A program made the translations under genes and the position numbers. DNA of 64,000 nt from Candidatus Kapaibacterium sp. (GTDB lineage: Bacteria; Bacteroidota; Ignavibacteria; Kapaibacteriales; UBA2268). The notes beneath the pieces were generated by a model. It was not told the DNA's origin, did not search any database, and was given only the letters and a program-made list of their open reading frames with translations. This document shows, piece after piece, positions 42,061 to 44,230 of the stretch (the first letter of the stretch is position 1; each line of letters begins with the position of its first letter). The stretch lies in assembly GCA_026418625.1 (NCBI GenBank), contig JAOABA010000024.1:1-64000 (forward strand). Reading direction: 5' to 3'.

Positions 42061-42173
42061 AAATAATGATTTTAATCATTTCTTTTATTCTTTATTTTTT
42101 TTACTATAGCCCACGAATAAATTCGTGGGATGATTTGATTTTTTTGTTATAAAATAATGATTTTAATCATTTC
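42061..42173. repeat. 22-bp palindromic direct repeats (family D)
   Basis: aaataatgattttaatcatttc at 42061-42082 and 42152-42173; the second encodes the RAYT C-terminus. Confidence 0.75.
42110..42129. repeat. REP-like palindrome family A
   Basis: CCCACGAATAAATTCGTGGG. Confidence 0.85.
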
Positions 42174-42608
42174 CAATAATCCGATTTTCATTCATTTTTT
42201 CGTGAATCATAACAAATTTGTCAAATTCTTCTTGAAAAGTTAATTTTCGATGATGTTCTTTCTGATTTTTGATATATTCAAACACTTTATTAACAATTGA
42301 TTCGCTGACAGAATATACAGCGCAACCACTCTGCCAAGAAAATTTTCCTGGGAAAAAATTATTCTGATTAATGAAATGTGAAGAACTTCCTTTTATTTGT
42401 TTGATAATATCTGTCATTGCTATTTTCGGATTTTGCAAGAATAGGCAATGAACGTGATCTGGCATTCCGTTTATTATTCTTACCGGGCAAAGAATATCTA
42501 TGAATTGTTCCCGAATATAATTGTAAATTTGTTCTTCAAAACGAGGTAAAATGAGCTTTTGTCTGTCTTTGACAGCCCAAATTGCGTGTTATAATATGAT
42601 TGTGACAT
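42163..42608 (-). pseudogene. IS200-like / REP-associated tyrosine transposase (RAYT), N-terminally frameshifted
   Basis: Frame 42163-42465 MPDHVHCLFLQ...YIKNQKEHHRKLTFQEEFDKF; same frame extends upstream as HAIWAVKDRQKLILPRFEEQIYNYIREQFIDILCPVRIING; MSQSYYN start (42608) lies in another frame. Confidence 0.8.
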
Positions 42609-42779: not shown

Positions 42780-42968
42780 TTAAAAAGGGCTTTTTATTTC
42801 TAATTGCTTGCAGATAATTTTACAAGTTATATTCACTATTTCATTATGGCGAGGGACACTTGATTGTTTATCATTTTTAGTATTTTGCCATATAGAATGA
42901 TTGCTACCTTCACGAATTTTAATGCAGCCCATTCGTTTTAAATATCTTTCGAAATCAATTCTTTTCAT
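42780..42968 (-). CDS. hicA: HicA-family mRNA interferase toxin
   Basis: FERYLKRMGCIKIREGSNHSIWQNTKN...SVPRHNEI...TCKIICKQLEI; conserved G-S-x-H. Confidence 0.85.
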   Translation of the reverse strand: MKRIDFERYLKRMGCIKIREGSNHSIWQNTKNDKQSSVPRHNEIVNITCKIICKQLEIKSPF

Positions 42969-43195
42969 TTAGCAAAAATCATCTTTCTCTTTAGGACTTT
43001 TTGCTCTTTATAATCATTCATTAATTTCATTTTTTGGGTTTCAAGCAAAAGATTTAATGCATCTCTTAAATTTTCTTTTAATTCTTCGATGGTTCTTCCT
43101 TGGGAAATTGCTGCGGGGAATTCTTCAATTTGACCTGCAAACCATCCACTCTCCGGGTCTTTTTGAATTAATATTGTCAATTCTGCGTTTTTCAT
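42965..43195 (-). CDS. hicB: HicB-family antitoxin
   Basis: MKNAELTILIQKDPESGWFAGQIEEFPAAISQGRTIEELKENLRDALNLLLE; 4-bp overlap with hicA; start set to 43195 instead of 43249. Confidence 0.85.
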   Translation of the reverse strand: MKNAELTILIQKDPESGWFAGQIEEFPAAISQGRTIEELKENLRDALNLLLETQKMKLMNDYKEQKVLKRKMIFAK

Positions 43196-43233
43196 TATCA
43201 ATAACTTATTAAATCTTATATTTAAATTTGACG

Positions 43234-43258
43234 AATAATAATTTATCAAATTATTATT
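43234..43258. promoter_or_regulatory. Perfect 11-bp inverted repeat upstream of hicB (candidate operator)
   Basis: AATAATAATTT-ATC-AAATTATTATT, 38 bp upstream of the proposed hicB start. Confidence 0.5.
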
Positions 43259-43299: not shown

Positions 43300-43545
43300 T
43301 TAACCTTCCAAAGGTATGAAATTTTCGGAAGGTTCCCTAAAATGCCAATACATCAAATTTAGCGGGAAATTACTCTTTATAGTATTAATTACTGCAACTC
43401 GTTGCTTATCTTTATAAATAAATTCTCTTTGATAGGGAGGGCGAATATCCAATTTTCCACCATAACCAACAACGCTTTCTTCGGCATTATCTTTATAGCC
43501 ATTAGCTATTTCCTTGACTGTTTCTTCTTTTAGCTCGATTTTCAT
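43300..43545 (-). pseudogene. N-terminal fragment of a DUF262 (GmrSD/ParB-like nuclease) protein
   Basis: DIRPPYQREFIYKDKQRVAVINTIKSNFPLNLMYWHF, then ends before the DGQQR motif expected in the family. Confidence 0.72.
43302..43335. repeat. Imperfect palindrome at the DUF262 truncation point
   Basis: AACCTTCC...GGAAGGTT, encoding REPSENFIPLEG-stop. Confidence 0.6.
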
Positions 43546-43562: not shown

Positions 43563-43596
43563 ATTCATCCGATGACTTAGAGTCATAGGATGAATT
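43563..43596. repeat. REP-like hairpin family C (left of RAYT)
   Basis: ATTCATCCGATGACT-TAG-AGTCATAGGATGAATT (one mismatch). Confidence 0.9.
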
Positions 43597-43610: not shown

Positions 43611-44183
43611 TTATATTACAATTAATTTTCTTTCAGTTAATTCTTTCAATTCATTTGTCTTAATTATACCCAAAATTAATTCTTTGCTTGGCAGAGTTCC
43701 ATTCCTTAAATCAATATAATCCTGATAACTTGAAAAAAGCCAATCTTCAGCTTTTTCCACTAATCCAGAGCGAATTGGATTTTGATGAATATATGTTAAC
43801 AGGGTTATTAAATAAGAATCTAAGGGAATGAGCTTTGCTTTAGTTTTTTGATTAAAAAGATTACCGTGCCGATTCCACATTTTGTTAAATGAACGAGTAT
43901 ATGACCTCAAAAGTATTGCTATTTGGCTTGAGATTTTTTTAGAATAACCATATTGATATTCATCCGATGACTTAGAGTCATCGGATGAATTACTTCTTTT
44001 CACTTTTACCAAAAAATGAAAATGTGTCGGCATTAAACAATAGCCGATAGTTTCAAAGTAATCATCTAAATAATACCGATATTTTTTAAGAAAATACAGA
44101 TAATTTTCCTCAGAGCGAAAGAGAGCCTCCTCGTTATTCGTTCTATTGTAAATGTGGTAATATGTATTTTCGTAAAATTGCAT
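43611..44183 (-). CDS. REP-associated tyrosine transposase (RAYT/TnpA-like, Y1-HUH)
   Basis: YYHIYNRTNNEEALFRSEENYLYFLKKY; GYCLMPTHFHFLVKVK (HUH); TYIHQNPIRSGLVEKAEDWLFSSYQDY (Tyr). Confidence 0.9.
   Translation of the reverse strand: MQFYENTYYHIYNRTNNEEALFRSEENYLYFLKKYRYYLDDYFETIGYCLMPTHFHFLVKVKRSNSSDDSKSSDEYQYGYSKKISSQIAILLRSYTRSFNKMWNRHGNLFNQKTKAKLIPLDSYLITLLTYIHQNPIRSGLVEKAEDWLFSSYQDYIDLRNGTLPSKELILGIIKTNELKELTERKLIVI
43958..43990. repeat. REP-like hairpin family C inside the RAYT ORF
   Basis: ATTCATCCGATGACT-TAG-AGTCATCGGATGAAT, 33 bp, translated as NSSDDSKSSDE. Confidence 0.92.
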
Positions 44184-44196
44184 TTTTTCCTTTTTT

Positions 44197-44230
44197 ATTC
44201 ATCCGATGACTTAGAGTCATCGGATGAATT
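44197..44230. repeat. REP-like hairpin family C (right of RAYT, upstream of its RBS)
   Basis: ATTCATCCGATGACT-TAG-AGTCATCGGATGAATT. Confidence 0.92.

Follow-up and report, generated by a model that had tools for sequence, protein, structure and literature searches.

The RAYT Locus and Its Three Hairpins

In the stretch of Candidatus Kapaibacterium sp. DNA analysed here (64,000 nucleotides, hereafter the window), the minus-strand locus at 43611-44183 is REPtron-like, and encodes a RAYT (TnpAREP) of 190 amino acids whose gene carries its own REP hairpin in frame; the loop that holds it is also where relatives have palindromes of unrelated sequence. The internal hairpin (ATTCATCC; 43958-43990, minus strand) is a perfect palindrome of 33 nt with 15-bp arms and a 3-nt loop (15-3-15), and contributes 11 codons, translated as NSSDDSKSSDE, at residues 65-75. 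The 5' flanking copy (44197-44229, minus strand) lies 13 bp upstream of the ATG at 44183 and the 3' flanking copy (43563-43595, minus strand) 15 bp past the stop codon, and all three are in one common orientation. The preliminary description had the hairpin on both sides of the gene and again in frame within it, as 33 bp or 11 codons, and each of these copies was located. It also took the internal hairpin to be the gene's own flanking repeat, which agrees with the identical 33-mer 206 bp away on the 5' side; as a small correction, the 3' copy has one mismatch. Half-site matches in the window number 16 against 2.45 expected, a count reached in none of 100 shuffles. As RNA, the hairpin has a predicted folding energy of -21.6 kcal/mol (z = -8.1).

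The gene was rightly called a RAYT. It contains the HUH motif THFH (residues 53-56) and the Y motif YIHQNP (Y131), with H54, H56, Y131, N135, and P136 invariant, and it matches NCBIfam NF047646 (REP_Tyr_transpos) at E=3.4e-15, which is below the curated cut-off, and Pfam Y1_Tnp weakly. A profile built from 38 relatives had TnpAREP 4er8 as its sole match in the PDB (E=3.4e-7), and the same structure was the best Foldseek hit (E=3.8e-8, TM 0.59/0.67, 16% identity) of an AlphaFold2 model predicted with a pLDDT of 95 and a pTM of 0.90. Two features of the RAYT/TnpAREP group (TnpAY1 class 2) were found, namely the HUH and Y---NP motifs in an IS200-like fold, and palindromic repeats that flank the gene and are dispersed in the genome. 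The model places the 11 residues in the loop between the HUH-bearing strand (beta3, residues 54-61) and helix C (73-102), adjoining the HUH strand, in keeping with the earlier suggestion that they form a loop.

Other features lie close to the RAYT gene. Next to it is an IS200-like Y1_Tnp gene (42262-42594, minus strand) whose reading frame is interrupted by a stop, and a separate palindrome, CCCACGAATAAATTCGTGGG, occurs at 42110, 42659, 44248, and 44372, around the Y1_Tnp gene and beyond the RAYT gene. Downstream of the RAYT gene, the minus-strand ORF at 42780-43249 resembles the HicA toxin (Pfam E=2.6e-9) and follows a small HicB/UPF0150-like ORF. The minus-strand ORF at 43300-43545, of 81 amino acids, is probably a gene fragment; it matches the GmrSD nuclease N-terminus weakly, with a score under the cut-off.

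Internal Palindromes in Related RAYT Genes

We gathered relatives from 394 genomes of the class and from 80 named contigs, most of which belong to draft genomes of Ignavibacteria or other Bacteroidota; together these sources gave 144 distinct genes. As the preliminary description had anticipated, most of them lack the 11 residues, with 57-59 residues separating the HUH and Y motifs in 92 of the 144. It had also held that homologues encoding the same residues by non-palindromic DNA would speak for an ancestral protein sequence; none was found, and the sole homologue with a similar peptide, L082 (KSSDDFQSSDDY), encodes it by a hairpin of its own. Judged by the homologous sequences, the 11-codon segment is an inserted DNA element and not ancestral protein, and this comparison rules out a coincidental palindrome or an ancestral peptide.

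Internal palindromes with arms of at least 13 bp are present in 13 of the 144 genes, against 1.0 expected from dinucleotide shuffles. Internal hairpins differ in sequence between genes, about a dozen of which, besides the window RAYT, have one in the same linker. Examples are L082 (AGTCATCC), L081 and L083 (AGATGTGCC, twice in the former and once in the latter), L161 (a decayed AGATGGAC), L205 (ATCGGTGG), L121 (GAGACTTC), L237 (CAACCCTTG), L260 (AACTTTTCC), L130 (CAAGACCTG), and L090 (GATGTCTG), the last of which has a stop in its reading frame. In L079, one half of the palindrome is clear and the other has decayed, and the genes of both L161 and L079 are open despite their decayed copies. Nearly all palindromes with arms of at least 15 bp lie 5-19 residues past the HUH motif, the second one of L081 being at 26. 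Two genes depart from this: L219 has its palindrome near the C-terminus, and that of L227 falls in a conserved N-terminal motif and is likely a coincidence. All three codon phases (0, 1, and 2) are used, and the resulting peptides are unrelated between carriers.

Two further RAYT loci have arrays of hairpins. In the second RAYT of genome G017 (L122, contig C93, approximately 2200-2380), the linker holds tandem half-hairpins, read as KDVQHHQE repeats, together with one full hairpin, and the coding sequence is divided between two frames; retention of the frame by internal hairpins is therefore not automatic. The RAYT of L011/L088 (G011, contig C15) has a linker without a hairpin, eight similar hairpins after the gene at a spacing of about 44 bp, and hairpins overlapping both ends of its open frame.

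In an alignment of eight internal 33-mers, 13 of the 15 base pairs have changed on both sides while 97.5% of the cells are paired, a level that none of 500 shuffles reached, and in slid structures pairing falls to 34-40%. It is the palindrome that recurs in the linker and not the peptide it encodes. When a tree of 56 relatives is calculated with the linker left out, the presence of a hairpin requires at least seven changes of state. The window gene belongs to a clade of seven in which six are carriers, and since these have hairpins of several different families, the pattern suggests a single old insertion whose sequence has since turned over. Other carriers (L121, L136, L205, L237, and L260/L130) are scattered on the tree.

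Agreement Between Internal and Flanking Hairpins

Each internal hairpin was aligned with the flanks of 14 genes, giving 13 valid rows (that of L079 was not counted). In eight of the 13, the gene's own flank was the single best of the 14, an agreement with a chance of roughly 1e-6 under equal chances, a rough figure that took 14 rows and ignores kinship. L083 departs from this pattern: its flank belongs to the hairpin family of the window whereas its internal hairpin belongs to that of L081, which is otherwise practically gone from the L083 genome. Hence an internal copy can persist when the flanks change, and strictly concerted evolution of internal and flanking hairpins is ruled out by this gene.

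Hairpins Elsewhere in the Genomes

Statements on genome-wide dispersal rest on pattern searches, and the window's own genome is a draft assembly in 58 contigs. It contains 21 hairpins with at most three mismatches, against none for a reversed-pattern control. Perfect copies of the exact GATGACT form are confined to the RAYT locus, and most other copies are a GATAACT form located in sorting domains. Across the taxonomic family, the hairpin family of the window occurs in 23 of 55 genomes (control 0): in seven of the eight with a close RAYT and in 16 of the 47 others (Fisher p=0.007, with kinship ignored), at a mean of 15.3 and 1.6 copies respectively. Some RAYT-negative genomes also carry hairpins, in up to 20 copies. 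Other families are dispersed as well, that of AGTCATC in G017 with 89 half-sites per strand (control pattern 0), and that of AGATGTG in G015. A search with the AT-rich pattern AACTTTTCCAAAGTT in six genomes carries no information, its counts being near those of the control in most of them.

The preliminary description had proposed looking for hairpins in frame within other ORFs, and in the window's own genome (G000) such copies do occur. A sister hairpin, ATTCATCCGATAACT...AGTTATCGGATGAAT, which differs by a paired change on both arms, is found at 15 places in sequence of the type A sorting domain of the type IX secretion system (T9SS), at the end of the domain in the context LSE-KIHPITLSYRMN-IEHLPSGIYYVRLGDWVGRF (loci L061-L077; e.g., L071 2482-2514, L074 2460-2492, and L076 2506-2538). 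Seven of these are in long open frames of 396-753 codons, and the other eight are on short frames of 46-88 codons, often with stops just upstream, and possibly represent gene fragments or genes with a frameshift. Conservation also extends for about 60 nt downstream of the hairpin, so that recombination among sorting domains explains the 15 copies as well as hairpin movement does, and the GATAACT copies could have spread in this way. The surroundings of the sorting-domain hairpin were also searched for an inverted unit of greater length, and none was found.

In addition to the 15 domains with the hairpin, we read 44 others, of at least 150 in this genome. Some type A domains (L312, L315, L316, L320, and L330) have different palindromes in the same loops (GTAGAGACACAGCATGCTGTGTCTCTAC and CATCAACCCTACGGTTAACCATAGGGTTGATG), some with GTAG...CTAC ends like those of double-foot REPs, although no matching RAYT was found in the window's genome. 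Of the best-scoring domains, 27 that were readable had no palindrome with arms of at least 12 bp. We found no report of REPs in T9SS sorting domains in the literature searched, which was mostly outside subscription journals.

A further case is a hybrid histidine kinase of G017, with two AGTCATC hairpins in frame in its HATPase domain (L371, contig C30, 1501-1581); the HATPase match there takes 143 residues to cover 108 profile positions. The hairpin peptide in this kinase, SSDDFQSSDD, is the same as that in the RAYT of G017.

Comparison With Known RAYT Systems

To our knowledge, the REPs of the E. coli TnpAREP only flank its gene. The window RAYT shares the fold of this enzyme with bound REP (PDB 4er8), the REP type of which, unlike the window hairpins, has a GTAG guide sequence.

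An in-frame REP within a RAYT gene is not new, since intragenic REPs have been reported before. REPs in frame within tnpAREP genes, between the HuH and Y motifs, were described as unique to subclass 2.4, in which the variable region sits away from the active site, the Y motif is YIxNNP, and the REPs have a GT[AG]G foot (Quentin et al., 2018, PMC6006769). The window RAYT is like this subclass in having flanking REPs together with an in-frame REP between the HuH and Y motifs, in the beta3-alphaC region. It differs in its SS tail motif and in an uninserted HUH-Y spacing of about 58, and also in its Y motif (YIHQNP) and the lack of a GT[AG]G foot in the sequence around all three hairpins, by which two differences the window gene extends the published phenomenon. 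Subclass 2.6 (Bertels group 5), of Bacteroidetes, has YIH[QN]NP, an SS tail motif, hairpins without GTAG, an NH[LIV]H motif, and a 21-aa insertion between alphaC and beta4 (PMC6006769). The window RAYT resembles it in its YIH[QN]NP-type motif, SS tail motif, GTAG-less hairpins, and Bacteroidota host, but its HUH motif is THFH and its insert-free relatives have a shorter HUH-Y spacing. In the model, 12 residues lie between the helix 73-102 and the strand 115-119, where the 21-aa insertion would be sought. Internal REPs were not reported for subclass 2.6 (PMC6006769), whereas the window RAYT has one. Intragenic REPs, Rickettsia palindromic elements among them, were also listed by Di Nocera et al. 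(2013, PMC3733652); these likewise are palindromic repeats in frame within protein genes, but there the hosts are unrelated genes and here the host is the gene of the repeat's own transposase.

The preliminary interpretation was partly borne out: it was right about the RAYT, its own repeat, and the loop insert, its feedback element is so far unsupported, and it missed the recurrence at the same site, the published precedent, and the in-frame copies elsewhere.

Origin of the Internal Hairpin

We consider it probable that the locus is a compact REPtron, in which a RAYT (an HUH, single-tyrosine ssDNA endonuclease) is flanked on either side by its cognate 33-bp REP and has taken up a third copy in frame. 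Under this mechanism, the RAYT would recognise the hairpins as single-stranded DNA and spread their copies. A copy arriving within the RAYT gene would survive only as a stop-free multiple of three bases in a surface loop that tolerates the added length, for which the linker following the HUH strand may be a suitable place. Later, the internal copy could be converted or replaced along with the flanks as the REP family shifts, or be left as a coding relic. The absence of the insert in most relatives, its place in the beta3-alphaC loop, the recurring unrelated palindromes with their paired changes, the changes of state on the tree, the own-flank agreement, the dispersal of the hairpins and their higher frequency alongside a close RAYT, the copy in the G017 kinase, and the split gene of L122 all support this reading. 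The RAYT-negative genomes with hairpins and the internal/flank mismatch in L083 count against it, as does the restriction of perfect GATGACT copies to the RAYT locus of the window genome, where most others are GATAACT copies in sorting domains.

Alternatively, the internal hairpin may be a control site, where the RAYT binds its own mRNA or gene, or where the stem slows translation or attracts cleavage, resulting in negative feedback. Such feedback is possible, and would account for the usual agreement of the internal hairpin with the flank; the palindrome that is kept while its sequence changes and the strong predicted RNA stem also fit. As the explanation of the insert we nevertheless find it unlikely, given that most relatives have intact genes without an internal hairpin, that the internal hairpin of L083 is of another family than its flank and nearly absent elsewhere in that genome, and that decayed copies are found in the open genes of L161 and L079. 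Still less likely is a benefit of the 11-residue peptide itself to the protein, which might for example gain an additional hairpin contact from it, with the palindrome being incidental: the loop does adjoin the HUH strand and the insert remains in frame, but the peptides are unrelated between carriers that use all three codon phases, and paired changes maintain the palindrome. Finally, a chance palindrome in an ancestral coding segment, or a misassembly, to which the draft state of the window genome lends some room, is very improbable in view of the identical 33-mer 206 bp away, the absence of the insert in most homologues, and the same arrangement in independently assembled genomes.

A wider and more speculative proposal, which we regard as rather doubtful, is that RAYT-linked palindromes in these Bacteroidota are a recurring source of loop sequence (in the RAYT linker, the T9SS sorting-domain loops, and the kinase ATPase loop), and that action of the enzyme keeps the internal copy in step with the flanks, making a self-regulating or self-marking element.

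Taken with the published record, these results extend an oddity, REPs inside a REP transposase gene, to genes that do not match the one subclass credited with REP inserts. In these genes, palindromes of unrelated sequence use one and the same insert site, and the internal and flanking repeats usually change together. The sets of internal and flanking hairpins offer natural material for tests of RAYT hairpin recognition, and the in-frame copies in other genes connect REPs with varying loops of secreted and signalling proteins.
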